Source: Alcanivorax sp. DSM 26293 | Lineage (GTDB): Bacteria > Pseudomonadota > Gammaproteobacteria > Pseudomonadales > Alcanivoracaceae | Assembly (NCBI RefSeq): GCF_900107995.1 | Contig: NZ_FNUM01000005.1 | Coordinates: forward strand, 62,001-126,000 | Direction of reading: 5' to 3' | DNA length: 64,000 bases | In this document: positions 6,898 through 38,893 of the stretch, piece by piece | How the letters are laid out: each line of letters begins with the position of its first letter | How positions within the stretch are numbered: position 1 is the stretch's first letter | Translations under genes and position numbers: made by a program | Notes under the pieces: generated by a model | Database searches by the model: none | What the model was told of the DNA's origin: nothing | Seen by the model: the letters and a program-made list of their open reading frames with translations, nothing else

Positions 6898-9800
6898 GTC
6901 AACTTGATAAGGCAGCACTGGCCCAGCGTTTTATGTCGCTGGATGAAAGCAAGCAGGCCGTCTTTCTGCAGAAGCTGAGTGAAAAGGGCATTCCCTTTGA
7001 GCGGTTGCCTATTGTCGCCGGGCATCGCCCGAAACGAATTCCACTGGCGCCGGCCCAGCAACGTTTGTGGACTATCCATCAACTGGAACCGGATAACACG
7101 GCCTACCATCTGACTGCCGCCTTTATGTTGTCAGGTCCGCTGGATGTGGCGCGTCTGTTGCGTGCCGTGGCAGCGGTGGCAGATCGGCACGACAGTCTGC
7201 GCACCCGTTTTGTAGAGGAAAATGGCCAGGCGCAGCAATGGATTGCAGCCGCGCCCCTGTCCGTGGAGCAGCGTGATGCCCGGGCGCTGGATGACAATGC
7301 CCGCCAGACCCTGGCGGACGAACATGCCCGTCGACCCTTTGTACTGGAGCGGGACAACCCGTTGCGCGTGCAGCTGCTGCAAGTGACCGATCAGCAATGG
7401 CGGCTACAACTGGTCATGCACCATCTGGTCTCCGATGGCTGGTCCATGGACGTGTTCTTTACCGACCTGGCCCGTGCCTATCTGTCCGATGCGCCCCTGT
7501 CTCCCTTGTCCATTCAGTACGCGGACTATGCCCTCTGGCAAAAGGCCTGGCTGGATGCCGGTGAGCGGGACCGGCAGTTGGCCTATTGGCGTGAACAACT
7601 CGGTGAGGTGCAGCCCCCGTTGTTGATTGCCCATGATCGCAACCCGGAAAAGAACGCTTTGCGTCAGGCGGCCAGTGTGCAATGGACCCTGCCGCAACAC
7701 TTGCAGGCGGCGCTGCAAAAGCTGGCCCGTGACAACGACACCACCCTGTTCACCGTGGTGCTGGCTGCCTGGCAATGGGCACTGGCTGCGGTTGGTGGTC
7801 GACGTGATATTCCGGTGGGCGTGCCGGTCGCCAATCGCGAGCGCTCGGAAGTGGAAGCGCTGGTGGGTTTCTTTGTGAACACCCTGGTGATACGCGGCAA
7901 ACCGCAAGCGGCGCTAACGGTGAATGAATGGGTGGGGAAGTTGCATCAGACCATGCTGGATGCCCAGGCTCATCAGGCGCTGCCCTTTGACCAGCTGGTG
8001 GCGTCCCTGTCTCCGCAAAGAGAGCCGGGCGAAACGCCCCTGTTCCAGGTGCTGTTCAACTATCAGCGTCGCGATGGCGGCAGCCGTCATCTGGACCAAG
8101 ATGTCACCATTACGCCCCTGTCCCAGGGCGTCCCCCATGCACTCTTTGATCTGGCGCTGGATGTGCACGAAAGCGACAACGGGGCGCTGGCACTGACGTT
8201 GACCTATGCCGCGGACCGTTTTCATGGCGAAACCGCCAGGCGTTTGCAGCAGGCCATGGAAGCTGTGCTGGATGCCTTCAGCGATGGTCAGTGTCGTCTG
8301 GGTACTATCGAGGTGGCCGGCGACGATCTGCCCCGGCTGGAACAGTGGGGGCAGGGCCGCGGTGAGTGGCAGTCGGAAAGCTTTGTGTCCCTGTTTTCCC
8401 GGCAGGCCGCCGAGCAGGGAAATGCCATTGCCCTGGTGCATGGTGGCACCCGTGTCTCCTTTGCCGAGCTGGAAGCCCGCTCCAACCAGTTGGCGCGTTA
8501 CCTGATTGAGCAGGGAGTAAAAGCGGACGATGTGGTGGGCGTTTCCTTCGAGCGCGGCGTCACCATGATCGAAGCCTTCCTGGCGGTGATGAAAGCCGGC
8601 GGCGCCTTCCTGCCGCTGGACCCGGGGTACCCTGCGGATCGTTTGCGTTACATGCTGGAAGACAGTGGCGCGAACCTGTTGCTGACCTCGTCGGATCTGG
8701 CTGAGAGCCTGCCCCGTGTTGATGGACTAACCCCGGTGCGAGTGGAGACACTGGCTCTGCAACGTTATTCCCCGACAAACCTGCATAACGAACCGCATCC
8801 CGACCAGCTTGCCTACGTCATTTACACCTCCGGTTCCACCGGTAAACCCAAGGGAGTGGCACTGACCCACGGCGGTCTGTCCATGCATGTGCAGACCATC
8901 GGCGAGCGCTACGGCATGACGCCGGAGGATGTGGAACTGCAGTTTGCCTCCATCAGTTTCGATGGCGCCGTGGAGCGCTGGACGGTGCCATTGGCCTTCG
9001 GCTCCCGCGTGGTCATCCGCGACCAGGAACTATGGAGTGCGGAACAATGTTGCGAGGCGCTGGAAAAAGAAAACGTCACCATCGCCTGTTTTCCGCCCAG
9101 CTATGTGGGGCCGTTACTGGATTGGATCGAACAAGAGCAACCTTCCCTGAAAGTGCGTTCCTGGACCCTGGGGGGCGAAGCCTTTACCCGGGAAACCTTT
9201 GAGCGCATGCAGCAGGTGCTCAAGCCGCAAAGAATCATTAACGGTTACGGCCCCACGGAAACCGTAGTCACGCCCATGCTGTGGGCGGCCTATCCGGGGG
9301 ATACGCTCACCAGTGCCTACGCGCCCATCGGTACCGCCGTCGGTCCACGAAAACTCTATGTACTGGACCAGGAACTTAATCGGGTTCCTGTTGGTGTGGC
9401 CGGTGAACTCTATATCGGCAACGAAGTGGGCCTGGCCCGGGGTTACCACGGCCGCCCGGACCTGACCGCCGAACGCTTTCTTCCCGATCCGTTCGGTGAA
9501 CCCGGCGAGCGCATGTACCGCACCGGGGACCTGGTGCAATTCCGCGACGACGGCGTCATGGAATATCTGGGTCGGGTGGACCAGCAGGTGAAGATCCGTG
9601 GCTTCCGCATTGAGCTTGGGGAAATCGAAAGCCGCCTGCTGGCCTTCGACACAATTCGCGAGGCGGCGGTGATCGCCCAACCATCCCCCACCGGCGATCG
9701 CCTGGTCGCCTACATCGTGGAACGCGCCCCTGTAGGAGCGGCGCTCGAGCCGCGAATCGACACTGATGCGATCCTGACAGAGCTGTCCCGCACTCTGCCG

Positions 9801-19725: not shown

Positions 19726-19771
19726 TGGTGGGCCCACCAGGACTTGAACCTGGGACCAATCGATTATGAGT
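19726..19771. repeat. Left attachment site (46-bp tRNA-Ile2 3' fragment)
   Basis: Identical over 46 bases to 38817-38862. It contains tRNA sequence from the anticodon loop to the CCA end and then diverges (TGGCAAGG instead of CGACTGCT), so this copy is not a tRNA gene. It is the junction left by site-specific integration. Confidence 0.93.
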
Positions 19772-25003: not shown

Positions 25004-25591
25004 TTATTTGCTAGTGGGATAGAGCTTGTGATGTCGTTCCCACCAAACAAGAAAAAAATGGGATTGAACGATGTAACCCCAGGCTCGCTTGGTTCCACCT
25101 AGCCTAAATCTAAATGCGGTTTCGAACTCCTCTAATCCCAATTTCTTCCACCGACGCCTAGCTTCTTTTATTAAAGTGGAAATTTCTTGTTCATGGTGCA
25201 TTTTATGCCCACTACCGGACCCACGGGAGTCAACATCAGCCCAAGTCATTTGAGTGAACTCAATGAATGGGGGCTCTATATCGACTGCCCATTCTTGGTC
25301 AGTCCAAGCGCGGAGTTCGTGCCAACTCCACTTTCCTTCTTTGTCCGCTTGAGAAATACACCAAGTTACGCGATTACCAAAGCGTGAGCCATCCTTGGTC
25401 GCTTTAGGTGTCTTAATGGTGTCGGAGTTGACGCTGGGGGATATTTGGGGTTGTTTCGTGTCGTTAACGGTGACTATGTACTTGGGCTGGTCAACACCGC
25501 TCACTGAGTCAATTAGTTTCTTTTTGGATTCCTCAAACCTTTTTTGTCTACTTGCTTTTCGTGCAGCTCGAGCCTCACTCTTGTTCCCCAT
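25004..25591 (-). CDS. Putative toxin partner of the Panacea antitoxin
   Basis: A 195-residue protein with a basic N-terminus (KSEARAARKASRQKRF) and a conserved-looking C-terminal half: HEQEISTLIKEARRRWKK, then TAFRFRLGGTKRAWGYIV and HHKLYPTSK. I recognise no catalytic motif. It begins 10 bp after the SocA-like gene on the same strand, the standard antitoxin-then-toxin layout. The toxin role is inferred from this pairing; such partners of Panacea antitoxins are highly diverse. Confidence 0.6.
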   Translation of the reverse strand: MGNKSEARAARKASRQKRFEESKKKLIDSVSGVDQPKYIVTVNDTKQPQISPSVNSDTIKTPKATKDGSRFGNRVTWCISQADKEGKWSWHELRAWTDQEWAVDIEPPFIEFTQMTWADVDSRGSGSGHKMHHEQEISTLIKEARRRWKKLGLEEFETAFRFRLGGTKRAWGYIVQSHFFLVWWERHHKLYPTSK

Positions 25592-25601
25592 AAGTGTAGG
25601 C

Positions 25602-26039
25602 TCACAGAGAGGAATAGTATTCGTGAATAGCGCTAAGGGTAATTGGCTCGTTTGAGTAAGCTCCTACAGGGGTGTCGCCTCTGGCGTCAAGCCAAGGAGC
25701 TTCTTGATGAGTAAGATTACTCAGCCATTGAGCTGTTTTGTCACCATAGAACCCAAGCACTTTCTGAATATTTTCTTTCTCGATATCGGACAGGTTTGTA
25801 GAGTCGCCTTCCTTAAAGAAAGATTGGTCAACTTTGAATTGCCCACGATGTTTATCGTAGATTGAAGGTAACACCGGGCCGTTGGCCCAAGCTTGGAAGT
25901 CGTCATCAGTAAAAAGGGGTTCTTCTTCCCAAACCATATGCCAAGCTTGTGCATAGTACATAAGCTTTTGTAGTTTCATGGCGGACATCACTCCATGTGC
26001 TTCCGTGATGTATCTTGCGACGTCATATACCGTTGCCAT
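25602..26039 (-). CDS. Panacea-domain (SocA-like, DUF4065) antitoxin
   Basis: A 145-residue protein. The N-terminal half shows the Panacea pattern: ARYITEAHGVMSAMKLQKLM, YYAQAWHMVWEEEPLF, then FQAWANGPVLPSIYDKHRG; LTHQEAPWLDARG follows near the end. Proteins of this family are antitoxins (SocA of Caulobacter is a proteolytic adaptor for its toxin) and neutralise many unrelated toxin types. It is the promoter-proximal gene of the pair with the downstream 195-residue protein. Confidence 0.82.
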   Translation of the reverse strand: MATVYDVARYITEAHGVMSAMKLQKLMYYAQAWHMVWEEEPLFTDDDFQAWANGPVLPSIYDKHRGQFKVDQSFFKEGDSTNLSDIEKENIQKVLGFYGDKTAQWLSNLTHQEAPWLDARGDTPVGAYSNEPITLSAIHEYYSSL

Positions 26040-26373
26040 GAGTGATCCCCTTGAATTTATTTAGAGAAGGCGGTTGGACTCCTTGCCTACTATAGTAAAG
26101 CACAGGAAATTATACTCTAGGGCTTGGGAAATCAAGAGAAAAGCAGGAAAAGAAGCAAAAAATCCAATATTATCAATGTGTTATGGGGTGTTGTTATGTG
26201 CGGAACAGCTCCTATCATTTTCCTCTTGTATGATCTGCCTCTCAAGATCAGGGCGCTATGTTAGTATGTGCTTATTCATTTGAGCGGGTGCAGAGCAATA
26301 CTGAGCGCTAAAGGAGTGAGCGCTAACATCCACGAAATACAATAAAATCAATGGATTGGACTATATTCTAAGT
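26040..26373. other. Divergent intergenic region between TA pair and ABC-3C operon
   Basis: A+T-rich 334 bases that must hold the promoters of both divergent operons. Near its right end GAGCGCTAA occurs twice (about 26304 and 26318) around AAGGAGT, a small tandem repeat that could be an operator. I see no gene. Confidence 0.45.
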
Positions 26374-27339
26374 ATGCCTATGAAATATGCCTATGAAGAT
26401 CTAAGCGACGATCAATTTGAAGAATTGATCGTTTTTTTATGTCATGAGCTACTTGGGATTTCTACCCAGGCCTTTGCTAAGGGGCCAGATGGAGGCCGAG
26501 ATGCAAAGTTTGTTGGGACTGCTGAACTCTACCCTAGCCAGCGTGCCCCCTGGAAGGGAGTGACTATAGTTCAGGCTAAGCATACTAATGGGTATAACAA
26601 GCACTTTTCTGATCCCGATTTTTACAGCAAAAATAATGAATCAACCGTCCTCGGTAAAGAGATAAATAGAATCAAGAAGCTTCGTGAAAATAAGCAGCTT
26701 GATCACTATATGCTATTTTCTAATAGACGGTTGGCGGCTAATGCTGAGAGTGAAATCCGGGCATGTTTGTCGAGTGAATGTGACATCCCTGAATCCTCAA
26801 TCTGCCTCTGTGGTGTCGAGGTTATAGAGATGTGGTTGAAGACCTTTCCAAAAGTAGCAGAAAGAGCCGGGCTGGATATGGTGGACTCTCCACTTATTGT
26901 TAGCCCTGATGATCTGTCAGATGTGGTTTATGCCTTGGCAAAGCATAAAAAGGATACGGTCGAGGTAGAGACGGACCCTCCTGTTCCGAGAACTCCTTAT
27001 GAAAAAAAGAATAAAATCAATAATATGTCTGATGAGTATGCTGCTGTGACTAGGGGGCGATATTTGAAAGAAACCGCGCAAGTTCAAAAGTTTCTTTCCG
27101 CTCCGGAAAACTACGAAATATTAAAGCTTTATGAAGATGTGGTAGATGAGTTTCAGCTCAAAATAGTAGCGAAAAGGAAAGATTATCAAACCTTCGACGA
27201 CGTGATGAACTATTTAGTGGATCTGCTTTTTGCTAGAGACCCCGTTTTGAGAAGAAACAAGCGACTAACTAGGGTCATGCTTTTTTATATGTACTGGAAT
27301 TGTGATATAGGGAGCGACGGAAATGTTAAGACCCACTAA
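26374..27339 (+). CDS. ABC-3C system effector with PD-(D/E)XK nuclease-like N-terminus
   Basis: A protein of 321 residues from the ATG at 26374; a TTG at 26356 or ATG at 26380 are alternatives and none has a clear ribosome site. The N-terminal part reads DLSDDQFEELIVFLCHELLG, then FAKGPDGGRDAKF and VTIVQAKHTN, the G-G-R-D ... Q-x-K pattern of Mrr-like restriction endonucleases. The C-terminal ~110 residues (KIVAKRKDYQTFDDVMNYLV ...) match the adaptor region seen in ABC-three-component proteins. It is probably held inactive until triggered and then cuts nucleic acid; this mode of action is inferred. It overlaps the next gene by 17 bp. Confidence 0.78.
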   Translation: MPMKYAYEDLSDDQFEELIVFLCHELLGISTQAFAKGPDGGRDAKFVGTAELYPSQRAPWKGVTIVQAKHTNGYNKHFSDPDFYSKNNESTVLGKEINRIKKLRENKQLDHYMLFSNRRLAANAESEIRACLSSECDIPESSICLCGVEVIEMWLKTFPKVAERAGLDMVDSPLIVSPDDLSDVVYALAKHKKDTVEVETDPPVPRTPYEKKNKINNMSDEYAAVTRGRYLKETAQVQKFLSAPENYEILKLYEDVVDEFQLKIVAKRKDYQTFDDVMNYLVDLLFARDPVLRRNKRLTRVMLFYMYWNCDIGSDGNVKTH

Positions 27340-27571
27340 ACATTCGCACCCTGATCGTACAGTGGTTAATGTTTCCTTGGTTCTTCTAATGAGGCTTAGA
27401 GACTCCAGGATTGAGGGTTACGGTGAGCTTTTTAAGCATTCCAAGAAGAGCGTTGTTGGCGGAGATGTTCTTTTTCTTCCTGCGCTGAATTTTTTATTTC
27501 TTCTTGGGTTGATTGAATATCATCCAAAAACTGATGCTATTGAGTATGTAAACAGCAATGAGACTGTCTAA
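27323..27571 (+). CDS. ABC-3C middle component (MC6-like)
   Basis: A small 82-residue protein starting MLRPTKHSHPDRTVVNVS, the characteristic start of ABC-three-component 'middle component' proteins, and ending in a winged-helix-like segment (LFLPALNFLFLLGLIEY). It is thought to bridge the ATPase and the effector. It overlaps the effector by 17 bp and the ATPase by 14 bp, so the three are tightly coupled. GGGAGCG upstream is the ribosome site. Confidence 0.75.
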   Translation: MLRPTKHSHPDRTVVNVSLVLLMRLRDSRIEGYGELFKHSKKSVVGGDVLFLPALNFLFLLGLIEYHPKTDAIEYVNSNETV

Positions 27572-29354
27572 GCTTTACACAAATAACCATGATTTGTTTG
27601 AGCCTATCTTTTTTAAAGATGGGCTGAATGTGGTATATGGCGAGATAAGGCTTCCCCAAAATAAAGGGAAGGATACCCATAATCTAGGTAAGAGTACCTT
27701 GGGGAGAGTGATTGATTTTGCTCTCCTCTCTAAAAGAGATCCTCGGTTCTTTCTTTTTAAGCACGAAGATGTTTTCGCAGCGTTTGTGTTTTTTATCGAG
27801 ATTGAGCTGGAGTCGGGAGGCTATCTTACTGTTCGTCGTAGTGTTAATAAGCCGTCAAGAGTGAGCTTTAAAAGGCACAACGATAAGTACCAGGACTTTA
27901 CTCAACTTGTAGATGAAAACTGGGATCATGTGGATGTTCCATTTTCCAAATCAAAAGAGCTTCTTGATGGAATTCTGGGGCTTTCGGCTATAAAACCATG
28001 GGGATATAGGAATGGCTTGGGCTATTTAGTTAGGTCTCAAGAAGACTATAGTGATGTGTTTAAGCTGAAGAAGTTTGGGTCGCGAGATGTTCACTGGAAG
28101 CCCTACTTGTCGCATGTGCTAGGGTTTAATGCTCGTTTGATTGTAAAGCATTACGATAAGGAAGATGAACTTAAAAAGAAAGAGGATGCTGAAAGTATAG
28201 TAAGAAAAGAGCTTGGTGGCTCCGTTCAGGATGTTAGTAAAATAGAAGGGATTCTCTTAATTAAGAGAAAGGATGCGGAAAAGAAGCAAGAGTTGCTCGA
28301 CGCGTTTGATTTTAGGCAGCAAGATAAAGATAAAACGAAATACATTGTCGATGATATTGATGAGACGATAGCTCGTCTGAATGGTGAGCGATATTCGCTT
28401 AGCCAAAACCTAAATAAAATAGATAAGGCTATTAACGAAGACAAAATTGTCTTTAGTACGGAGGAAGCTGCGAAGATATTTGATGAAGCCGGAGTGTTTT
28501 TTGCTGGACAGATAAAAAAAGATTTTGATCAGCTTGTGGCTTTCAATAAAGCTATAACAGAGGAGAGAATAGGGTATCTGGTTGGTGAAAAAGAATATGT
28601 TTCTGCCGAGATTTCGAGAATTACGAAAGAACTGAATGTTCTTGGTAAAAAACGTTCAGATGCTCTTGCTTTTTTGAGTGATACAGAAGTTTTTGCAAAA
28701 TATAAGACGTTATCTAACGAGCTTGTGACGCTTAGGGCTGATATAGAAGCGCTTGAGAGGCAGAAAGAGCACCTTCACCGGCTTCAAGAATTAAGAGCAG
28801 AAATTCGGCAGCTGAATGAACAGTGTGGCCATCTTCAGACTGAAATTGAAAATGATGTTGAGTATCAAAACTCGGATCAGGAAAGCCTGTTTTCGAACAT
28901 TAGGGTTTATTTTAGCGAAATAGTGGACGATGTAATAAATAGGAAAGCTCTTTTAAGCGTTTCTCCTAACAGTGAAGGGCATTTACAGTTCAAAGCTGAG
29001 ATTCTTGATGAATCGGGGAATTCAACTAGTGCTGATATGGGGCATACTTATAAAAAGCTACTGTGCATCGCATTTGATCTGGCTGTTCTGAGAGCTCATT
29101 TGAATGACAAGTTTCCGCATTTTGTTTTTCACGATGGAGTTTTTGAGTCATTAGATAAACGCAAGAAAGAGAACCTATTGTCTACTCTTCGTCAGTATTC
29201 TGAGATGGGCATTCAGTCTATAATTACGCTGATTGATTCCGACCTTCCTGAAAGGGGGGATGAGGAAGAGCCTGTTTTTAATGAGGATGAGGTTGTTTTA
29301 AGGCTTCATGATGAAGGAGATCAGGGGCGCCTATTTAGAATGAAAGGCTGGTGA
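27558..29354 (+). CDS. ABC-3C ATPase (DUF2326 / SMC-like coiled-coil ATPase)
   Basis: A 598-residue ABC-type ATPase. The unusual Walker A is HNLGKST (residues 41-47) inside a GEIRLPQ...-type loop. Long helical coiled-coil segments span about residues 190-460, with a signature region SADMGHTYKKLLCIAFDLAV and Walker B FVFHDGVFESLD near residues 522-533. This is the architecture of DUF2326 proteins in ABC-three-component systems, predicted to sense invading DNA or another signal and release the effector. It is the last gene of the operon. Confidence 0.85.
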   Translation: MRLSKLYTNNHDLFEPIFFKDGLNVVYGEIRLPQNKGKDTHNLGKSTLGRVIDFALLSKRDPRFFLFKHEDVFAAFVFFIEIELESGGYLTVRRSVNKPSRVSFKRHNDKYQDFTQLVDENWDHVDVPFSKSKELLDGILGLSAIKPWGYRNGLGYLVRSQEDYSDVFKLKKFGSRDVHWKPYLSHVLGFNARLIVKHYDKEDELKKKEDAESIVRKELGGSVQDVSKIEGILLIKRKDAEKKQELLDAFDFRQQDKDKTKYIVDDIDETIARLNGERYSLSQNLNKIDKAINEDKIVFSTEEAAKIFDEAGVFFAGQIKKDFDQLVAFNKAITEERIGYLVGEKEYVSAEISRITKELNVLGKKRSDALAFLSDTEVFAKYKTLSNELVTLRADIEALERQKEHLHRLQELRAEIRQLNEQCGHLQTEIENDVEYQNSDQESLFSNIRVYFSEIVDDVINRKALLSVSPNSEGHLQFKAEILDESGNSTSADMGHTYKKLLCIAFDLAVLRAHLNDKFPHFVFHDGVFESLDKRKKENLLSTLRQYSEMGIQSIITLIDSDLPERGDEEEPVFNEDEVVLRLHDEGDQGRLFRMKGW

Positions 29355-29405: not shown

Positions 29406-30782
29406 TTATAATTTATTAATGAAGTCGTTCACTTCATCGTGCTTGGAATCGGGAACGTCTGAACCGGCATCACTGCTGCCGGTATCGGTCTGGGCTTCAC
29501 TGGTGTTCTGTGAGGCCCCTTGTTCCCGGATAGCCGAGGCGATCTTGCCGCCTGCGGTGTTGGACAGGGATTCACGCGCACCCTCCATGCGGTTGCTAAC
29601 CCCTTCTTTCGCGGCCTTGGCGGTGCCTTTACCCAGGTTGGCCGCAACATCGCTCATATAGTTGGCTCCGGTGTTCATAGCCGCAGCAAAGCTAGATGTC
29701 TTGCTGCCGCCGCTTCCAGCACCAACAGGGGCGTTTTTGAAGGCTCCTTGTCCTGATGACATGTTGGTATTTGCTTGCTTGAAGGCCGCATTCAGGGCTG
29801 AAGCACCGCCAAAGGCCTGTTTTGCACCGGCCATTGCTGCCGCGCCGCCTGTTGCAACGGCAGCCCCACCAAGTGCCACGGCGCCCATGGCAGCGCCGGC
29901 ACCGAAGCCTCCCGGTCCACTGATGCTGGAGCCATTGATGATGCCGGCCACCATCTGGGGGACTTTGCTGACCAATAGCATCAAGATGGCTGAAACGACG
30001 GCAACGACAGTAAGCTCTTTTAAATGGATTCCGTCAGAAAGATTTTGGTAGTAATCATTTAGGATGCTGTTTCCTATACCAATGATTAGGACCATGGTCA
30101 TGATGCTGGCTGCGACACCTAAGACAGTTTTGAAGTAGTTGATGGCAATATCGCTTGTCCACTTCGAGCCTCCAAAGCCCAGGAAGAAGACGCCGGCATA
30201 CAGGAGAATCCAGGAGCTGCAGAGCAAGATAATCATGTTGGCCGCAATAAGGCACATCATCGCAATGATCACCAGGCCCAGTATCAGTGCGCAGAGGGTT
30301 TCCCCCATACTCCAGATGCTACTGTCGTCTATAATCCGAAAAAATATCTCAAAGCCGATATCCATTACGTTTCCGGGCCTGAATTCTGGGCCTAATCCGC
30401 TAGCAGTGCCTCCCACTTGTTGAAGGCTGAGGATAATATCACCCGCCATATCCGGGCCGTTGAGAAGTAACCAGTAGTAGAAGCCAACATAGACAGTGAA
30501 CCGAATAAATTCAGCGAAGAATTCCCCTATGTCTGCCTGGCGTAAGGCCATAAATCCGAAGGTGAAGATCATGGAGATGGCGACCAGACACCAGAAAAGC
30601 CAGCTTGCCCGATCCGTGATAACGGAGGCCCAAGTGCCAGCGTTGTCACGGAAGGCCCTCATTATCTGCTCCGACACATCGGAGTTGTCGATTGCAGCTT
30701 GAGCCACGCTACTGGCCATGAGAAGCATGGTGGATGCCATGATTCGCAGTTGCCAGCCGTTAATCCTTTCCCAAATGCTCAT
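29406..30782 (-). CDS. trbL: TrbL (VirB6-like) mating-pore membrane protein
   Basis: A 458-residue polytopic inner-membrane protein with a signal-like start (MASTMLLMASSVAQA), about six hydrophobic segments to residue 275, and then a long Gly/Ala-rich tail (GGFGAGAAMGAVALGGAAVA ...) typical of TrbL. In RP4, TrbL is an inner-membrane component of the Trb mating-pair apparatus. Here it follows trbJ and trbK in the same order as on IncP plasmids, yet no other trb core genes are present. RP4 TrbL is somewhat longer (about 528). Confidence 0.85.
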   Translation of the reverse strand: MSIWERINGWQLRIMASTMLLMASSVAQAAIDNSDVSEQIMRAFRDNAGTWASVITDRASWLFWCLVAISMIFTFGFMALRQADIGEFFAEFIRFTVYVGFYYWLLLNGPDMAGDIILSLQQVGGTASGLGPEFRPGNVMDIGFEIFFRIIDDSSIWSMGETLCALILGLVIIAMMCLIAANMIILLCSSWILLYAGVFFLGFGGSKWTSDIAINYFKTVLGVAASIMTMVLIIGIGNSILNDYYQNLSDGIHLKELTVVAVVSAILMLLVSKVPQMVAGIINGSSISGPGGFGAGAAMGAVALGGAAVATGGAAAMAGAKQAFGGASALNAAFKQANTNMSSGQGAFKNAPVGAGSGGSKTSSFAAAMNTGANYMSDVAANLGKGTAKAAKEGVSNRMEGARESLSNTAGGKIASAIREQGASQNTSEAQTDTGSSDAGSDVPDSKHDEVNDFINKL

Positions 30783-30805: not shown

Positions 30806-31027
30806 TTACTTAACGGTGAATCCTTCGCCGGAGCTTTTCTTAAAGGTGCCTCGACGCAGGCATTTGCTAGAAAACTCTTGTTGCATTGCTCTGCTTTCCA
30901 GCTTTTTTATGTTTTCCAGCTTGCAATTCGTGTCGTTCACTTCGGGCATCTTTTCCTCGAAACATCCAGAGAGAAAGATGGCCAAAGAGGCTGTCGTCAC
31001 CAGAGGTAAGATTTTGGCTGATTTCAT
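30806..31027 (-). CDS. trbK: TrbK-like entry-exclusion lipoprotein
   Basis: A 73-residue lipoprotein with signal and lipobox FLSGC (Cys22), then MPEVNDTNCKLENIKKLE and CLRRGTFKKSS, which resembles TrbK of IncP plasmids (about 69 residues). TrbK in RP4 blocks entry of related plasmids into the host. It sits between trbJ and trbL exactly as in RP4. The last nine residues (SSGEGFTVK) are identical to the end of the upstream TrbJ. Confidence 0.8.
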   Translation of the reverse strand: MKSAKILPLVTTASLAIFLSGCFEEKMPEVNDTNCKLENIKKLESRAMQQEFSSKCLRRGTFKKSSGEGFTVK

Positions 31028-31059: not shown

Positions 31060-31803
31060 TCATTTGACGGTGAATCCTTCACCGCTACTTTCTTTGAACT
31101 CGCCTTTTCTGAGGTTTTCTGAGCTGGCTTTCTGCAGGGCTTCCCGACTGTTCTCGGCCTGCATCCTAGCCACCAGGGCTTGGTTCTGCTGGGCCATCAG
31201 AGAGCGAATTTGCAGGAGTTGGGCTGACTGCTGGCTGGCAAACTGATTGGCATATTCCAGGGCAGCCAAACGGCCCGCCGGATTTTGCGCCTGGTTCTGG
31301 AGCTGACGCAGCCGCTGGGCATCCTGCTCTAGCTGATCCTGCTGCATTTGAACGCCCACCAGGGCCTTGTCATTGGCCGCTTTCTGGGTGGTGGTGCCGG
31401 CGGCGTACAGATCGTCATAGGTGCCCCGGCACCCGTCTTCCTGGAAGCAATTGATGTTGCGGTACTCGCCCAGGTCGCCGCCGAACTTGTCCAGCCAGGC
31501 ATTCAAACTGCCGGCCTGCTGGGAATACACCTTGATGGCATCGGTCGCGTTAATGAGCTGAGTAATGGTGGAATCGGTCTGATCCCAGAGATACCCATTC
31601 ACGCCCGTGGTGTTCTTGATCTGGTCTTCAAGTTGCAGCAACTGCGTCCGGTACTCCTCGATCTGCTTTGACGTCTGAGCCATATTCTCAATCGAGGACA
31701 ACGTGGTCTGGATGATGTTGGTCACGTCAATGGTGGCGATTCCAGCATTGGCAGAATTGAATGAGAGCAATATGAGAAGAGATGCAATAAAGGTTTTATT
31801 CAT
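31060..31803 (-). CDS. trbJ: TrbJ (VirB5-like) pilus-tip/periplasmic transfer protein
   Basis: A 247-residue exported protein with signal peptide (LLILLSFNSANA) followed by a helical region (IIQTTLSSIENMAQTSKQIE), the pattern YRTQLLQLEDQIKNTTG, and a central INCFQEDGCRG segment, all typical of P-type TrbJ. RP4 TrbJ is about 258 residues. It heads a trbJ-trbK-trbL mini-operon with a KorB-type operator 102 bp upstream. The C-terminal 20 residues are 15/20 identical to those of TrbK. Confidence 0.87.
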   Translation of the reverse strand: MNKTFIASLLILLSFNSANAGIATIDVTNIIQTTLSSIENMAQTSKQIEEYRTQLLQLEDQIKNTTGVNGYLWDQTDSTITQLINATDAIKVYSQQAGSLNAWLDKFGGDLGEYRNINCFQEDGCRGTYDDLYAAGTTTQKAANDKALVGVQMQQDQLEQDAQRLRQLQNQAQNPAGRLAALEYANQFASQQSAQLLQIRSLMAQQNQALVARMQAENSREALQKASSENLRKGEFKESSGEGFTVK

Positions 31804-31904: not shown

Positions 31905-31917
31905 TTTAGCCGCTAAA
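31905..31917. promoter_or_regulatory. KorB-type operator 1 (before trbJ)
   Basis: TTTAGCCGCTAAA, inside a 17-bp palindrome (31903-31919), in the 116-bp traI-trbJ gap. It exactly fits the known IncP KorB operator consensus TTTAGCSGCTAAA. Confidence 0.85.
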
Positions 31918-31919
31918 AT

Positions 31920-33494
31920 TTAGCGTAGGGTTATTCGCTTTTGTTTAGCTTTATGACGCCTATTCGGATCGGAATTCAGCATGACCTTTTGTGAATGGAC
32001 GTCGGTGAAGTTTACATCCATGGAATTTTCGCCTGCTATTTTTTCTATTCGAGAACGAAATGCAGGGTCACCTGATAATTCGAGCTTATTTCCATACTTG
32101 GTCTTGGCTAGAGAAAGCGTCGCAATAAGCGTTTCCTCCTTTGGCTGCGACGGCAATATCAACTTCTCGCCATCGTCACGCACAGCTTGTTCATGAAGCT
32201 GGTAAATAATGGTGCCCTTCCTAGTGACGCCGTCAGCTCTGATTCCTGACGTCTGGTTGTCTTTTTTGTGCTGAGGCTGGCCGATACTATTACCCTTAGA
32301 TGGCTTGGATCGATGTGACCTCAGTACTCGCAGAGCCTTATCGTTACCCTGTTTTGCCTGCTTTCTTAGCCAGTCATTCCAGCCTGGAAGGAGGTGTTGG
32401 TTATTGATTTTATTCCGCTCTCTAGCGTATTCCTCACGGATGCGCTTGATCTCGTTTTGAAGGGAGCGGTTGATCCGCATATAGACCAGGCGTTTTGCTG
32501 TTCGCCCTCTAGCCAAAGTTCTGAGCGCTTGGCGCCTCAAGTTGGCAGAACGTCTGGCAGCGGTAATTAACTTTTCCCTTTTGTTAATGGCCCCTTTGAT
32601 GGCTTGGCTTTGTAAGGCTCGACCTTCCGATTTGGCTTTAGTGTATTCGGCGAACAATTCTGCTGAATGTAGGTTCCGATGGACTGGCTCGCCTCGATAC
32701 TTAACCTCTGGTTCCGGGGCTTGTCCTTCAATGGCGCGGTAGCAGCCAAGCCTTTTCTCAAGCTTTGCTTTTGAGAAATCACGATTGACGGTGCTGGCTT
32801 TCAGAGCTATCCCTGATCCCGATTTAAATACCAGGCCCGCCCCTTGCGGTACTAGCTTTATATCGTATTTCGCTATGGCTTCATGGAGCTGCTGCCAGGT
32901 TTCTGCATCCTTCACCGCTTCCGCACAGTACTTGCAAACCCAGCTCAAGAGGCTTTCCCGACCGCTCATGTTCTCTATATCTTGTGCTCGTCCCTCAGCC
33001 ATCGTGCGCTTTTTTTTGTGATTATCGCGCTGCAGGTTGTGTTTTTTCTCTAGCTCCAAGCATAGGTTGTCCCGAGTCCTGTAGTCGCGATATGGCTCAT
33101 GCATGGTCAGGCGAACGGGATGAATTTTGTTGATCGCAAGGTGGATATGAAAATTATCTGTGTCTTGGTGGGTGACACTGATGCGCTGGTGCTCACCATA
33201 GCCCAGTGCGTTACACATATCGGTTTCTATGTTCTTCAAGACCTCTGCTTTTGGAGACTCTCCCTCGGGGAAGGAAATAATCAGGTGGTAGGTTTTATCA
33301 CCTGTAGCTCTTTGGTTAAGGCTCTGAGTGGTCTCAATCTCCAGGGCTGCCCACTCCGGGGTTTCTGAGCGGCAGTTAGTGATCGAGATGGAGCCGACCC
33401 TGAATTCCTTGCCCTGGGAATTGAGCAAATAGTTGGTTAGCCTGCTGAAGCTGCTCTTGCCGCCGTGGTTCATGGTGACCCGTTTGCTGATCAT
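31920..33494 (-). CDS. traI: TraI relaxase, MOBP (RP4-like)
   Basis: A 524-residue relaxase. The first 280 residues follow RP4 TraI closely: MISKRVTMNHGGKSSFSRL, catalytic Tyr22 (LTNYLLN), motif III HxHxxxNKIHP with His116 and His118 (DNFHIHLAINKIHP), then HEPYRDYRTRDNLCLELE and NLQRDNH. These residue numbers equal those I recall for RP4. It would nick oriT and lead the strand into the recipient. At 524 residues it is shorter than RP4 TraI (about 732), so the C-terminal region is reduced. It lies directly after traJ and oriT as on IncP plasmids. Confidence 0.93.
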   Translation of the reverse strand: MISKRVTMNHGGKSSFSRLTNYLLNSQGKEFRVGSISITNCRSETPEWAALEIETTQSLNQRATGDKTYHLIISFPEGESPKAEVLKNIETDMCNALGYGEHQRISVTHQDTDNFHIHLAINKIHPVRLTMHEPYRDYRTRDNLCLELEKKHNLQRDNHKKKRTMAEGRAQDIENMSGRESLLSWVCKYCAEAVKDAETWQQLHEAIAKYDIKLVPQGAGLVFKSGSGIALKASTVNRDFSKAKLEKRLGCYRAIEGQAPEPEVKYRGEPVHRNLHSAELFAEYTKAKSEGRALQSQAIKGAINKREKLITAARRSANLRRQALRTLARGRTAKRLVYMRINRSLQNEIKRIREEYARERNKINNQHLLPGWNDWLRKQAKQGNDKALRVLRSHRSKPSKGNSIGQPQHKKDNQTSGIRADGVTRKGTIIYQLHEQAVRDDGEKLILPSQPKEETLIATLSLAKTKYGNKLELSGDPAFRSRIEKIAGENSMDVNFTDVHSQKVMLNSDPNRRHKAKQKRITLR

Positions 33495-33500
33495 GAGAAC

Positions 33501-33513
33501 TTTAGCCGCTAAA
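33501..33513. promoter_or_regulatory. KorB-type operator 2 (traJ-traI junction)
   Basis: TTTAGCCGCTAAA overlaps the traJ stop codon and lies 7 bp upstream of the traI start. A repressor bound here would block readthrough from traJ into traI. Confidence 0.82.
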
Positions 33514-33880
33514 ATTTTAGGGCGGAGGCTTTTTGATAGAGCAGGGCCTGAATGGCTTTCGTATCCCTAAGAGCAGCCAGAATGACGCTTTCGAGTCTGG
33601 CTGAGCTGTGCCCCTCTAGTTCCAGCTTCTCGTCATTGGTGAGCCACATTTTCAGCAAGCCGCCAATTCGGCCTAAATCGGCATTGATCTTCACCAGCTC
33701 CATTACTGCTTCCTTGTCAGCTATGCCTGTTACTGGCGTACCCATTCCGACATTTCGTAAATAGGCGGAAGCGCTAAGGCCAGCGGACTTTGCCTTATTC
33801 ACAATGTCACCTTTTTCATCAGGCAATACCCATACCTTAATGGGGGTGGTGCCTTTTCGAGTTGGCGATCCAGTCATCAT
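33509..33880 (-). CDS. traJ: TraJ oriT-recognition protein
   Basis: A protein of 123 residues from the ATG at 33880, the same length as RP4 TraJ; a longer frame to 33931 would run towards oriT and is unlikely. It starts PTRKGTTPIKVWVLPDE, followed by AKSAGLSASAYLRNVGMG and VKINADLGRIGGLLKMWL, matching RP4 TraJ. TraJ binds the inverted repeat beside nic and recruits TraI. It lies between traI and oriT and reads away from oriT. Confidence 0.9.
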   Translation of the reverse strand: MMTGSPTRKGTTPIKVWVLPDEKGDIVNKAKSAGLSASAYLRNVGMGTPVTGIADKEAVMELVKINADLGRIGGLLKMWLTNDEKLELEGHSSARLESVILAALRDTKAIQALLYQKASALKF

Positions 33881-33934
33881 TATCTCTTTCGGCGGTAGCC
33901 TTTGCCTCGCAGAGCAGGACCCGTTGAGCACTTG

Positions 33935-34005
33935 TGCGAATAAGGATTTTGAAGTGGTTCGCCGGGCTTGTCCCGGTGGGCCTACTTCACCTGTCCTGCC
34001 CTAAT
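33935..34005 (+). other. oriT: Origin of transfer (oriT), RP4/IncP type
   Basis: The plus strand has GTGCGAATAAGG, the inverted repeat TGAAGT...ACTTCA with inner CCGGG...CCCGG, then GGGCCTACTTCACC (33978-33991) and the nic region TGTCCTG|CCC. RP4 oriT reads GGGCCTACTTCACC then TATCCTG|CCC at the same place. The predicted nick is between 33998 and 33999. It sits upstream of traJ, as in RP4. No traK homologue follows on the other side. Confidence 0.92.
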
Positions 34006-34229
34006 AAAAAACACTTTTAAAACGATTTATAGTGCGATCCTATCGCTTTTTATTTGCTGTTTTAAAGCAAAAACAAGAGATTTTTTATTGGCTTAGTAAT
34101 TTGGCGAAAGTGGGAGTAATTAATGATGCTGAAAATCACTGTAAAAGCATGTGGAAGGATAAGAGCAGTGTTCTAAAAGCAGAATAAAAGCGTTGTGGCA
34201 GCGTTTCTGGCGAGGTCATCCTTATAGCC
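34006..34229. other. A+T-rich region beside oriT
   Basis: Where RP4 has traK, this element has about 220 A+T-rich bases with short T and A runs and no supported gene. It could contain transfer-related bends or promoters; nothing specific is visible. Confidence 0.4.
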
Positions 34230-34382
34230 TTATTTGAGTTTGGCTCTTCTTTCACGCTGTTTTCGCAGCTTGTTCTTGGCCCAAAGCCCGTCCCTTTGCA
34301 TCTCTCGTCGCAGATCTTCAATTTCTTCTTGTGTCAGTTTTCTGGGGCCTTGATCTGATCCTGATACTGAATTTGACGTCAT
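34230..34382 (-). CDS. Tiny basic protein 1 of a three-member paralogous set
   Basis: 50 residues with a ribosome site AAAGGAAC before the ATG. It contains DQGPRKLTQEEIEDLRREMQ and a basic end (RKQRERRAKLK). The core GPR[RK]LT-x-x-x[IV]-x-x-LR is shared with the next two small genes. No known function; a single charged helix is likely. A KorB-type operator lies 33 bp upstream of its start. Confidence 0.7.
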   Translation of the reverse strand: MTSNSVSGSDQGPRKLTQEEIEDLRREMQRDGLWAKNKLRKQRERRAKLK

Positions 34383-34414
34383 GTCTTGTTCCTTTCGTCC
34401 AGTGTTCAAAAACC

Positions 34415-34427
34415 TTTAGCCGCTAAA
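34415..34427. promoter_or_regulatory. KorB-type operator 3
   Basis: TTTAGCCGCTAAA within the 17-bp palindrome 34413-34429, 33 bp upstream of tiny gene 1. Confidence 0.85.
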
Positions 34428-34472
34428 GGCTCCCCGTGCGATCAGTATCGCTCTGTATTCATGCTAGAAGGG

Positions 34473-34619
34473 CTATTTGTCTTTGTTGGCTTTCCGAAGC
34501 CGCAGCCTTTCTTGCATCCTTTTGAGGTCGTGTTTTGCCTCTTCTCGAAGTGCTTCGATTTCCTGCTCGGTGAGCCGCCTTGGCCCAAGATCAGAGTGGG
34601 GTGGTGATCTGTCACTCAT
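34473..34619 (-). CDS. Tiny basic protein 2 of a three-member paralogous set
   Basis: 48 residues starting MSDRSPPHSDLGPRRLTEQE, then IEALREEAKHDLKRMQERLR and a Lys-rich end. Ribosome site AGAGGGAAT. It is clearly paralogous to its neighbours and has its own KorB-type operator 34 bp upstream. Function unknown. Confidence 0.72.
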   Translation of the reverse strand: MSDRSPPHSDLGPRRLTEQEIEALREEAKHDLKRMQERLRLRKANKDK

Positions 34620-34652
34620 ATTCCCTCTGTTGTCACTTATGGATGATTATAC

Positions 34653-34665
34653 TTTAGCCGCTAAA
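34653..34665. promoter_or_regulatory. KorB-type operator 4
   Basis: TTTAGCCGCTAAA, 34 bp upstream of tiny gene 2. Confidence 0.85.
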
Positions 34666-34692
34666 TTGGCAGCCATCATCATGGGGAAGTGA

Positions 34693-34908
34693 TTAAGACT
34701 GTTTGGTCCTCTCTTTTTCCTGCAGCCAGGCTCTGACTTTTTCCCCATCCTGCTGCATCTCCTGCTGTAGTGATTCTATCTCTGATTGCGTCAACGGATT
34801 GAGCATTCTTGAGGTGTCCCGCTTGGCCTCTTGCCGAAGTTCTTGGACTTTCTGCTCGGTAAGCCGTCTAGGTCCATGCTCAGAACGGTATGGTGATCTG
34901 TCGTTCAT
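34693..34908 (-). CDS. Tiny protein 3 of a three-member paralogous set (duplicated helix)
   Basis: 71 residues: MNDRSPYRSEHGPRRLTEQK, then VQELRQEAKRDTSRM, then a second related helix PLTQSEIESLQQEMQQDGEK. The second half resembles the core of tiny protein 1 (LTQEEIEDLRREMQRDG), so this gene may be a fusion of two repeat units. Ribosome site GGGGAAG. A KorB-type operator lies 37 bp upstream. Function unknown. Confidence 0.75.
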   Translation of the reverse strand: MNDRSPYRSEHGPRRLTEQKVQELRQEAKRDTSRMLNPLTQSEIESLQQEMQQDGEKVRAWLQEKERTKQS

Positions 34909-34944
34909 TGTTCTTCCCCGTATGCAGTATCTGATATTACTAAT

Positions 34945-34957
34945 TTTAGCCGCTAAA
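34945..34957. promoter_or_regulatory. KorB-type operator 5
   Basis: TTTAGCCGCTAAA within the 17-bp palindrome 34943-34959, 37 bp upstream of tiny gene 3. Confidence 0.85.
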
Positions 34958-35332: not shown

Positions 35333-36244
35333 TTAGGGACGCTTACGTTTGGCTTGCTTGCGTTTGTGCTGGGTGTGGTGGGCGTTTACTGGAACATGTG
35401 GCCGCCCAGCTAGCATGTCCTTGAGCTCAGCTCGTTTTCCTTCAGGGCCGTCCGCGTAGAACGTCACCTGGTCACGTTTGGCATCATAGGCCATGAGGTA
35501 ATCAGGCAGAGCACCATTTTCAGCCAACTTTATGATTTCCCCTCGAAACTTACGCAATGTGGTCGTGCTGCCGCTTTTTTCTAGGAGTGTGGCAAGTTGT
35601 ACCCGCCAATGTGGCTGCTTCCCACAGTGTTTTCGAGCCAGCTCATACATTCGACGGTATAGGGGTTTGCGGATACGGAAATAATCGCGGTTTAAGGTTA
35701 GCACATGCATGGATTCGATACTGCGGAACAGCCAGTCAGGTAGTGTCACCTCCACCGCTTTCATGCGATTATTTGTAGGCGATCTCTCCACGACTCGCCA
35801 AGAATCGATTAGGCCAAACCCCTGCCGTTCGCGCTGTCCATTCGTTTCTATGTTGGTTTCAATACGCGTACCGCTGAGCCGGCGGAGCATGCCCGCAGCC
35901 CGTTCGTATCCGACCCCGCTTGTTGGTCGGCTAGTCGCTTTAAGAAAGTCGTGCATGGTGAAGTGAACCGTGCTCGACAATTCTCGTCCCCTGTTCTTCG
36001 CCTCTACGATTTGACTGATGCAATATATCCACAGGTCCTTGTCGTGGATAGATGCGAGCCCGGTTGCTCCAGGAAGAATAGTGACTCTTCTGCCGTTTCG
36101 TTCGTAAGTGCGAATGCGCTTGTCGCCGGCCCTCAATGCGAACAACGGGTGCTCCATGCTGGCCATGTCATCTTTAGGGGCGGCATCCAGTATATCGGCT
36201 ACAAAGAAATCGCCTTGCCGATTGTGATCCGGCAATAGAGCCAT
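35333..36244 (-). CDS. repA: Plasmid replication initiator protein (RPA/RepA family)
   Basis: A 303-residue protein beginning LLPDHNRQGDFFVADILDAA, then MASMEHPLFALRAGDKRIR, IHDKDLWIYCISQIVEAKNR, TRIETNIETNGQRERQGFG, VTLPDWLFRSIESM and RRMYELARKHCG, characteristic of the replication initiator protein A family. It is not TrfA-like, so the replication module is not the IncP one. It suggests the element can replicate after excision or derives from a plasmid. The tail is very basic (KRKQAKRKRP). Confidence 0.88.
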   Translation of the reverse strand: MALLPDHNRQGDFFVADILDAAPKDDMASMEHPLFALRAGDKRIRTYERNGRRVTILPGATGLASIHDKDLWIYCISQIVEAKNRGRELSSTVHFTMHDFLKATSRPTSGVGYERAAGMLRRLSGTRIETNIETNGQRERQGFGLIDSWRVVERSPTNNRMKAVEVTLPDWLFRSIESMHVLTLNRDYFRIRKPLYRRMYELARKHCGKQPHWRVQLATLLEKSGSTTTLRKFRGEIIKLAENGALPDYLMAYDAKRDQVTFYADGPEGKRAELKDMLAGRPHVPVNAHHTQHKRKQAKRKRP

Positions 36245-36329: not shown

Positions 36330-36542
36330 TCATGATTCGTCTATGAGCTCTGCCACATCGCTGGCTTTAAAGTAGACGCGACGGCCAAGCTTCCTTTTTG
36401 CGGAGTTCCATTTGTTTGCAAATTCTGATTGACTGCGTAACGAAATTCTTAGTCCGTCAGGGCTTCGCTTTAGCAGATCTGATAAGTCGGTAAGTGATAG
36501 AAGTGGCCCGTAACGTTTTAAAAGCTGCTCTTCTGTGGTCAT
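36330..36542 (-). CDS. Small helix-turn-helix DNA-binding protein
   Basis: 70 residues: LKRYGPLLSLTDLSDLLKRS, then RISLRSQSEFANKWN and KRKLGRRVYFKASDVAELID. The final R-x-VYFK-x-x-DVAELID pattern is the wing/end of MerR/AlpA-like DNA-binding proteins found beside replication or integration genes of mobile elements. It could regulate repA, which starts 86 bp further on, or act as an excision factor. Confidence 0.65.
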   Translation of the reverse strand: MTTEEQLLKRYGPLLSLTDLSDLLKRSPDGLRISLRSQSEFANKWNSAKRKLGRRVYFKASDVAELIDES

Positions 36543-37549: not shown

Positions 37550-38656
37550 CTACTTTTTGCTCCGCTGAATATTTCTGCGGCTTTCGATGAAATCCAGCTC
37601 ATCAACCAGATCTTCGGCCCTCAGGTGAGTGTAGCGCTTCAGCATCTGCATGGATTTGTGCCCGCTTATAGCGGCCACCTGCTGGTCGCTGAGCCCACCT
37701 TCTACTAGCCGGCTTACTGCTTCATGGCGTAGATCATGGAAGTGTAGCTCTTTCAATCCGGCGCTTTCCTTCGCCTTTAGCCAGGGTTTGTTGAAGTTAT
37801 AGGGTCTGCGTTGTCCGTCCCTGCCTGGTTCACCAAAGAACACCAGGTCTGTATCTATGGGACGGATAGGGTTGTCCTGGGCCTCCTGCAGTATCGCTGC
37901 CGCTTTACTGGAAAGTGGGACGGTTCGCGGTGCGGTGTTCTTGGTCTCAAGGAGACGCACAACCCGTCGTTTCAGGTCGATCTGGTTGCGTCGTAGTGTG
38001 GTGATCTCTGCCGAACGCATACCGGTTTCCAGGGCCAGCCGTACGATCCAGCCAAGCATGGGGTTGGAGTGGCTATCGACTGCTGCCAACAGGCGCTCTT
38101 CTTCCGCCTGGCTTAGCCGGCGCTCACGGCCGGGAGGTGGGGCAGGGCGACGGATATTTTGCACTGGGTTGGCCGGCAGGCCGATTCCCCATTCTCTGAT
38201 AGCGGTATTGAACATATGACCGAGCAATGCCAGGTCGAGCCTTACCGTGTTGGGGGATCGAGGTTTGGGATCAGGATTACCCTTGGCGTCTTTGCGGTCC
38301 AGGCCTGCAAGGCGTTCATCGCGATACTTGGCGATGATCTCAGGTGACAGGGCGGCAAGAGAGTATTTGCCCAGGCCTTTGATTAGCGGTTTGGAGTGCC
38401 GGGCGTCACACGCCGCAGAGGCAGGACGCTTGGTTGGGGAAACTTCCGCAAGGTAACGCTTGAGTGCGTCCGCCACGGTCATTCGTTCAGCTGGTGCGCG
38501 TTGGATGTAGATGCCACGCACCATTTCATCTTCGGTCCGTCGCGACCAATCTTCCGCATCGCGTTTGGTGCGAAAGGTCTTTGAGGTGGTGGGAAACCCC
38601 GTTTTGCGAATGACGGCTTTCCATGTGCCAGACGGGGTTTTGACGAGTGTTGCCAT
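37550..38656 (-). CDS. int: Tyrosine-type site-specific integrase
   Basis: A 368-residue integrase. The N-terminal arm-binding domain (TWKAVIRKTGFPTTSKTFRT) is followed by a SAM-like core-binding domain and a catalytic domain with Arg in ALETGMRSAEITTLRR, HDLRHEAVSRL (His-x-x-Arg), GHKSM and the nucleophile Tyr in LKRYTHLRAEDL. It lies next to the intact tRNA-Ile2 gene and should catalyse integration and excision at the 46-bp att core. A C-terminal tail follows the tyrosine. Confidence 0.95.
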   Translation of the reverse strand: MATLVKTPSGTWKAVIRKTGFPTTSKTFRTKRDAEDWSRRTEDEMVRGIYIQRAPAERMTVADALKRYLAEVSPTKRPASAACDARHSKPLIKGLGKYSLAALSPEIIAKYRDERLAGLDRKDAKGNPDPKPRSPNTVRLDLALLGHMFNTAIREWGIGLPANPVQNIRRPAPPPGRERRLSQAEEERLLAAVDSHSNPMLGWIVRLALETGMRSAEITTLRRNQIDLKRRVVRLLETKNTAPRTVPLSSKAAAILQEAQDNPIRPIDTDLVFFGEPGRDGQRRPYNFNKPWLKAKESAGLKELHFHDLRHEAVSRLVEGGLSDQQVAAISGHKSMQMLKRYTHLRAEDLVDELDFIESRRNIQRSKK

Positions 38657-38816: not shown

Positions 38817-38862
38817 TGGTGGGCCCACCAGGACTTGAACCTGGGACCAATCGATTATGAGT
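38817..38862. repeat. Right attachment site (within tRNA-Ile2)
   Basis: The 46-bp copy within the intact tRNA, identical to 19726-19771. It runs from the 3' CCA to the 5' side of the anticodon loop (bases 31-76), so the crossover may be in the anticodon loop. Confidence 0.93.
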
Positions 38863-38893
38863 CGACTGCTCTAACCAGCTGAGCTATAGGCCC
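38817..38893 (-). tRNA. tRNA-Ile2 (CAU anticodon, lysidine-modified)
   Basis: 77 nt including CCA. It folds as a cloverleaf with anticodon loop CTCATAA. CAU could mean Met or Ile2. C4-G69, C5-G68 and the G27-U43 pair agree with known identity elements for TilS, which makes lysidine in Ile2, so Ile2 is favoured. Position next to rpoD is as for ileX in E. coli. It is the target of the integrated element. Confidence 0.9.

Follow-up and report, generated by a model that had tools for sequence, protein, structure and literature searches.

The stretch of DNA analysed here, called the window throughout, comprises 64,000 nucleotides of Alcanivorax sp. DSM 26293 (contig NZ_FNUM01000005.1, positions 62,001 to 126,000) and contains an element of ~19 kb at a tRNA-Met gene that, by its gene content, looks like a satellite needing a helper plasmid of the IncP type. 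The element carries five exact operators for KorB, the ParB-type protein that silences genes and, together with IncC, sorts IncP plasmids. On balance we favour, with some reserve, the reading that the KorB of a helper binds these sites and that they are kept for that protein, because the operator occurs in every satellite examined, stands in places shared with IncP plasmids, is spelled by invariant codons in trbJ, and a korB-bearing plasmid exists within the genus. Genomes, contigs and loci carry our own numbers (G, C and L).

KorB operators in the window and in the genome

The KorB operator (OB), which we take to be the 13-bp palindrome TTTAGCSGCTAAA, is matched exactly by TTTAGCCGCTAAA at five places, namely 34945–34957 (operator 1), 34653–34665 (2), 34415–34427 (3), 33501–33513 (4) and 31905–31917 (5), and the central base is the same in all of them, as the preliminary description of this DNA had stated. 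A 13-bp palindromic KorB operator is described in print (PMC10954446). Operators 1 and 2 lie 36 and 33 bp upstream of two tiny genes, operator 3 upstream of a third one; operator 4 overlaps the traJ stop codon, 6 bp from the start of traI, a place shared with four IncP plasmids, and operator 5 is separated from the traI stop by 2 bp and from trbJ, which lies downstream, by 101 bp. One base away from operator 2 the minus strand reads TATAAT; a consensus promoter scan lists no promoter there. That each site stands upstream of a leftward gene is thus accurate for the window, where the sites at 33501 and 31905 overlap or abut gene ends, but does not extend to a rule for the family, since many relatives have their sites in trbJ or at gene ends.

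Allowing up to two mismatches, these five are the only TTTAGCCGCTAAA-like sites in the window; 0.82 would be expected, and none of 100 shuffles reached five. The whole genome (G000; 3.7 Mb, 22 contigs) contains seven exact copies, the remaining two being located on contig C5, both in a second satellite-like element. Outside 31–35 kb the count is therefore zero in the window and two in the genome. A chance origin was rejected on the window shuffles, the genome counts and the satellite-wide counts given below. By identity the sites are KorB operators, which, like the satellite nature of the element, is well supported by the sequence.

The element was said to encode no KorB, and the searches agree. 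The KorB family PF08535 has no match in the genome, in which the KorB of the Marinobacter plasmid pHP-42 retrieved at best a partial match of 38% over ~145 residues, at the level of a chromosomal ParB. Using tblastn at 1e-4, KorB, IncC, KorA, TraG and TrbE of pHP-42 retrieved nothing from the window, nor did TrbE of this type from the genome at 1e-20. It is because of the missing TrbE match, together with an IncP-like nic sequence, relaxase, TrbJ and TrbL, that we regard the element as an IncP-dependent satellite, probably unable to transfer by itself. Judged from its sequence it possesses a binding site for a helper's partition protein and no parAB genes of its own, as in the use that the genomic island SGI1 makes of its helper. 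The model proposed at the outset, a satellite controlled by KorB from an IncP-like plasmid, keeps its operator match, its lack of KorB and its need for an IncP-type helper; the role of sensor or switch that it assigned to the sites is not established.

Helper-type plasmids and survey of satellites

A plasmid of the required type is present within the same genus, as far as sequence can tell: contig C27 of genome G002 (41,854 bp), which carries 10 operators and korB. It is 87–92% identical to pHP-42 over long stretches, with KorB at 93% and TrbE at 99%. Four reference plasmids were read whole, pHP-42 and those from Nitrincola, Cycloclasticus and Xanthomonas; each has 10 exact operators, an annotated korB or ParB-family gene beside korA/incC, and, in 4/4, one operator at the traJ/traI junction and one within trbJ. 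In pHP-42 one operator stands just upstream of korA. Further plasmid-type loci with sites are those of G002, L043 and L080. KorB was found for G002 and G664 in a search that covered 17 genomes (G712, G253, G917, G946, G968, G1065 and G1071 were left out, and the genome of L080 lay outside this test).

Satellites were defined by the presence of TrbJ and TrbL with no TrbB–TrbI or KorB in the stretch read. Searches of sampled genomes with the window TrbJ (1e-8) were positive in 7 of 369 genomes of the class and 11 of 390 of the order, and a search with a plasmid TrbJ (1e-15) in 9 of 398 of the phylum. These yielded 13 satellites, and four came from other searches: L009 through its relaxase, L020 through the operator pattern, L067 and L069 through their integrase. 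The exact operator is present in 17/17, with 45 sites in total. Only L020 is known solely by the pattern, and without it and the window the count is 15/15; G101, G275 and G395, first noticed by the pattern, were later recovered by TrbJ. Of the 17, four were added by a TrbJ protein search once the first 13 had been analysed, and all of these carry the operator (4/4). The independent number is below these raw counts, since the TrbJ proteins of L046 and L067 are identical and L025–L027 together with G002 are near-copies of one plasmid type.

Eight loci with trb genes belong to types other than that of the pHP-42 plasmids (L042, L044, L045, L047, L048, L062, L063 and the 3-kb L053), and none of them shows a site in the stretch read. 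KorB queries in 10 satellite genomes returned partial matches at the ParB level only; in the same genomes TrbE queries returned nothing in eight and matches of ~38–40% in G250 and G406. Lone genomic sites were rejected as evidence: the pattern occurs in 8/46 genomes of the family versus 4/46 for the reversed control, which is near background. At the level of the order, one or more sites are present in 78 of 390 genomes. The loci at four lone sites (L021–L024), the cluster of G183 (L032) and L064 showed no match to the reference genes. In a TrbJ tree of 27 rows, comprising the first 13 satellites, the satellites fall into more than one group, with a minimum of two forced changes; long branches leave the placement of the window unsure.

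Genome G737 harbours two IncP-like transfer regions (L044 and L045), one with a trbE containing several stops.

Placement and conservation of the operators

The operator lies within the first 11–35 nt of trbJ in 14 of the 17 satellites; the three exceptions (window, L009, L060) have it ~100–112 bp upstream of this gene. A site at the traJ stop is shared by four elements (window, L009, L060, L079). A gene termed orf332 was detected by tblastn in 10 elements, of which 8 have an operator at most 95 bp from its end, L059 and L079 being the misses. Operators upstream of tiny genes are confined to the window and L009. With most sites of the family away from recognised promoters, control of a nearby promoter is unlikely to be the whole story.

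Over the 144 kb of the first 13 satellites, 31 exact operators compare with 0.01 expected. With any central base allowed, the operator is the commonest 13-mer palindrome in these sequences (33 copies, present in 13/13; the next has three). Decayed copies are few: one mismatch, 2 versus 0.15 expected; two mismatches, 3 versus 3.25; three mismatches, 34 versus 30. Where the operator falls within trbJ it encodes the tetrapeptide LAAK. Sought as protein, LAAK near the TrbJ start was found in 14/17 satellites, 7/7 IncP-type loci and 0/8 other trbJ genes, and its codons are those of the operator, TTA GCS GCT AAA, in 21/21. A second LAAK in the trbJ of L083 is encoded differently (CTG GCG GCT AAA), and the codons of the neighbouring AGIPV vary. 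This count replaces an earlier one in which rows had been chosen by the exact site, which was circular. Between the window and L009, all five shared operators are identical in 13/13 positions; their flanks are 73, 79, 98, 98 and 92% identical, the two lowest values belonging to tiny genes 1 and 2. Conservation across the 17 satellites argues for selection, as far as sequence comparison goes.

A near-identical leader (TGTCAACC...CATTGCTGGGCACCATAAAGC) precedes both the AlpA-like gene and trbJ in L006 (15418, 18222), L020, L030, L031 and L060. Among the 13 satellites scanned, these five are the elements with orf332 at ≥54% identity; with up to five mismatches allowed, the leader was absent from the other eight and from two plasmids. 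The leader is a candidate target of the orf332 product, the end of which appears helix-turn-helix (HTH)-like by eye and has no Pfam match.

Tiny genes and a second reading frame in kfrC

All three tiny genes are on the minus strand: gene 1 (34693–34908; 71 aa, with a motif in two copies), gene 2 (34473–34619; 48 aa) and gene 3 (34230–34382; 50 aa from ATG). A profile of the window proteins searched against 14,670 open frames retrieved the copies in L009 and C5, followed by a frame internal to kfrC in four plasmids (E 2e-9 to 5e-7), and more weakly L059 and L031. In the seven genes first examined, this plasmid frame is +1 relative to KfrC. KfrC in its own frame was also tried and gave no convincing match to the tiny proteins; the +1 frame does match.

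In 10 of 12 kfrC-type genes the +1 frame shows a conserved ATG start, GGAG upstream and a length of about 52–65 codons; plasmids L075 and L078 lacked the motif and were excluded from the subsequent test, and the ten were reduced to six by removal of near-copies. For these six, 2000 synonymous re-draws were compared with the real sequences and none came up to their openness or similarity, a result that is overstated in that the re-draws ignore shared ancestry. The open reading frame (ORF) is thereby indicated as a candidate overlapping gene, hidden in the kfrC of IncP/IncU plasmids; the excerpts of PMC7414963 and PMC7783346 make no mention of a second frame in kfrC. Unannotated examples are found in L025 (about 11800–11969, plus strand), L028 (17834–18028, minus strand), L027, L070–L074, L076 and L077. 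The tiny genes probably derive from kfrC DNA, because one repeat of tiny gene 1 has stayed similar to KfrC when translated in the other frame and the C5 element carries a KfrC-like fragment (44% over 79 residues). AlphaFold predicts for tiny protein 2 a single helix at residues 18–47 (mean pLDDT 83.8). Against Pfam and PHROGs, the best E for the tiny proteins was 0.0059, below the Pfam cut-off. The comparison of codons between the window and L009 gives no sign of purifying selection on the tiny genes (0 synonymous and 4 non-synonymous changes in gene 2; 0 and 2 in gene 3).

Possible roles of the operators

KorB acts as a clamp dependent on CTP, which is loaded at the operator and then slides; with RK2 KorB as the sole repressor, a 4–5 fold repression is described for operators at a distance of 4 bp or 1.5 kb (PMC11790492). 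RP4 KorB is reported to have been bound to an operator in the Pseudomonas putida chromosome (cited in PMC7314908), and RP4 genes undergo zygotic induction through loss of repression (PMC7314908). For SGI1, two mimics of the IncC parS site and the small helical protein Sci are described; the helper's ParAB sorts SGI1, and the helper is destabilised or expelled (PMC10954446).

From the sequences we infer binding of KorB, silencing, partition and competition. The KorB of a helper IncP-type plasmid would load on the satellite at its operators and coat the transfer region, keeping expression of traJ/traI, trbJKL and the tiny genes as low as in the helper. On arrival in a KorB-free cell, a burst of expression of the satellite genes would be expected. 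The excised circle, replicating through its RPA-type initiator, would use the IncC/KorB sorting of the helper and compete with it for this machinery. A double role, silencing and sorting, seems most likely, of which sorting would be the better fit to sites away from promoters.

Two narrower versions are nested in this reading. In one, the sites would mainly provide a borrowed centromere, that is, mimics of parS through which the satellite is sorted by the helper's IncC/KorB and pushes the helper out, transcriptional control being incidental. We hold this to be quite possible, if short of probable. The location of sites off recognised promoters (in trbJ, at the end of orf332, at gene stops) speaks for it, as do the replication initiator on the window element, the relationship of the tiny genes to a frame in kfrC, whose product in plasmid RA3 interacts with KorB in a two-hybrid assay (PMC7783346), and the precedent of the parS sites and Sci of SGI1, of which this would be the IncP counterpart. 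By that analogy, such a role accounts for the sites no worse than that of a sensor or switch. Conversely, the sites at trbJ and traJ/traI may be mere passengers of their modules, three of the window sites stand just upstream of small genes, the related element GIsul2 of Escherichia coli has only one exact site, and the ability of KorB to silence at a distance makes off-promoter sites compatible with silencing.

In the other version, the sites would mainly sense the helper: KorB would repress the mobilisation and tiny genes as long as the helper is resident and release them upon entry into a KorB-free cell. The operators that precede tiny genes 1 and 2 by 33–36 bp, which are kept in L009, and the published zygotic induction of RP4 (PMC7314908) are in its favour. 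We nevertheless consider it doubtful as the main use of the sites: the window has no KorA site, no promoter around the tiny genes rises above chance, and the sites of the family are mostly off recognised promoters.

That the operators are inherited remnants, brought along with IncP tra/trb modules and of no present use, is improbable. Two of the places are indeed those of IncP plasmids, but the TrbJ and TraI of the window are only ~40–48% identical to the plasmid proteins, whereas the sites are preserved in 13/13 positions; few sites have decayed, and the operator codons agree in 21/21. Moreover, the sites at the tiny genes and at the end of orf332 do not belong to the tra/trb modules, and a search for orf332 in plasmids L025 and L028 was negative at 1e-4. 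Recognition of the palindrome by a protein of the satellite itself, for which its presence in all 17 satellites would speak, is very improbable, given four korB plasmids with 10 copies each, one of them just upstream of korA in pHP-42, and the lack of matches to the satellite integrase, RPA and AlpA-type proteins in L025 and L028 at 1e-4.

Several observations weigh against binding and use of the sites by a helper KorB. No helper is seen in this genome, and in this strain the sites may consequently lie unused. The window was also scanned at up to two mismatches for the KorA operator, which we take to have the letters of RP4, and has none; KorB by itself represses only moderately, and around the tiny genes promoter-like sequence is no more frequent than chance would give. 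One-mismatch copies of the operator are slightly above chance (2 versus 0.15), and the conservation is silent on which role is selected. L044 and L045 have KorB-like genes (59% and 49%) and no exact site in the stretches read, and the trb genes of L062 are up to 82% identical to those of pHP-42, yet it has no site either; these loci fit no simple operator rule. Finally, L032 (G183, contig C178) has two exact operators 5.7 kb apart and no match to satellite or IncP reference genes.

Elsewhere, the scan for KorA operators gave scattered matches, the nearest being a one-mismatch copy at 7495 of L029, ~50 bp from the operator at 7431.

Other features of the element and the second element on C5

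The element is bounded by a 46-bp direct repeat, the left copy of which (19726–19771) is identical to 38817–38862, the 3′ part of the tRNA-Met gene (38817–38893, minus strand). The genes named next, from the integrase to trbL, are on the minus strand. A tyrosine integrase (37550–38656; PF00589, 2.7e-32) is followed by a small HTH_17 protein resembling AlpA or an excisionase (36330–36542; PF12728, below its cut-off) and the RPA-type replication initiator (35333–36244; PF10134, 3.2e-87). Beyond the tiny genes lie a TraJ-like, NikA-like relaxosome protein (33509–33931; PF21983, 7e-21), the MOBP relaxase TraI (31920–33494; PF03432, PF22863), with ~40–42% identity to plasmid TraI among the best matches, the VirB5-like TrbJ (31060–31803), at most 48% identical to plasmid TrbJ, and the VirB6-like TrbL (29406–30782; PF04610, 6.1e-35). 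Between the last two, a TrbK-like lipoprotein, a candidate entry exclusion protein (30806–31027), is recognised by its position and a lipobox seen by eye, and has no Pfam match. TraK, sought in the window by tblastn at 1e-4 with the single query of pHP-42, was not detected, a search that a diverged TraK could escape. The cargo (25004–29354) consists of ABC-three-component defence-type genes and a SocA/Panacea gene (PF20279, PF20295, PF10088, PF13274). Relatives of two of these defence-cargo genes (59% and 23%) were observed beside the trbL of L059.

The sequence TTCACCTGTCCTGC at 33986–33999 (plus strand), which adjoins an inverted repeat, presumably functions as the nic site of an origin of transfer. 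With A or G permitted at one position, the pattern was found in 10 of the 17 loci scanned, seven satellites and three plasmids. The variant TTCACCTGTCCTGC is common to the window element, C5 (L006, 17599) and L009, and TTCACCTATCCTGC is that of the four other satellites and the three plasmids.

The second element adjoins guaA on C5 and has a different, GIsul2-like integrase, an HTH protein, RPA (78% identical to that of the window), TraJ (77%), TrbJ and TrbL, with a KorB operator inside trbJ. No relaxase match was obtained in it at 1e-4, and the window TraI might therefore serve C5.

Comparison with known systems

The "IncP island" and GIsul2 have been described as putative integrative mobilizable elements that subvert IncP plasmids (PMC5704250), and the kind of element reported here is thus already in print as putative IncP pirates. 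KorB is not mentioned in that review, and our literature searches turned up no description of KorB sites in islands of this sort. The IncP island of Burkholderia glumae, Acidovorax and relatives resembles the window element in its MobP relaxase, TraJ, TrbJ, TrbK-sized gene, TrbL and replication gene, and an IncP helper was proposed for it (PMC5704250). Its traits recur in the window as an integrase with attachment repeats and as MobP relaxase, TraJ and TrbJ-(K)-TrbL in the absence of the remaining type IV secretion system (T4SS), trbK being assigned by position only. In this comparison, made with the published description of the island, the window differs in having the three tiny genes and in yielding no match to TraK, which that description lists.

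GIsul2 corresponds to the C5 element: a GIsul2-like integrase beside guaA, an HTH protein, TraJ/TrbJ/TrbL, no relaxase found, and the operator in trbJ, where GIsul2 of E. coli has its single exact copy. It differs from C5 in carrying RepA/RepC in place of the RPA initiator, and from the window element, which has its own relaxase, a different integrase and the tRNA-Met site. Plasmids of the pHP-42 type (Marinobacter, Nitrincola, Cycloclasticus and G002 C27) share the operator with the satellites, with 10 copies including those at traJ/traI and trbJ; unlike the satellites, they have a full transfer system with korA, incC and korB and are predicted to be conjugative.

The window element does not belong to the SGI1 family, given its tRNA-Met site and its IncP-type TrbJ/TrbL in contrast to the TraN/TraH/TraG of mating-pair-formation class F (MPF_F) in SGI1 (PMC5704250). 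With SGI1 and its IncC helper it shares the layout of a satellite with spare T4SS subunits, a replication gene, sites for the helper's ParB and a small helical protein (PMC10954446, PMC5704250). The T4SS class and the ParB site are others, and the parallel in function is a putative one. The authors of the SGI1 work state, with regard to Par systems, that similar systems had not been identified in integrative mobilizable elements before (PMC10954446). We tentatively propose that IncP-dependent satellites, both those like the IncP island and those like GIsul2, took over the centromere of their helper independently of SGI1, the helper's KorB being loaded at their sites to sort them and expel the helper, and that here three KorB-controlled, kfrC-derived small proteins may tune the helper's segregation complex. 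If so, the theft of the IncC parS by SGI1 would become a more general strategy, present in a different group of satellites, to which GIsul2 with its sulfonamide resistance belongs, and copies of helper ParB sites would offer a cheap guess at a satellite's helper.

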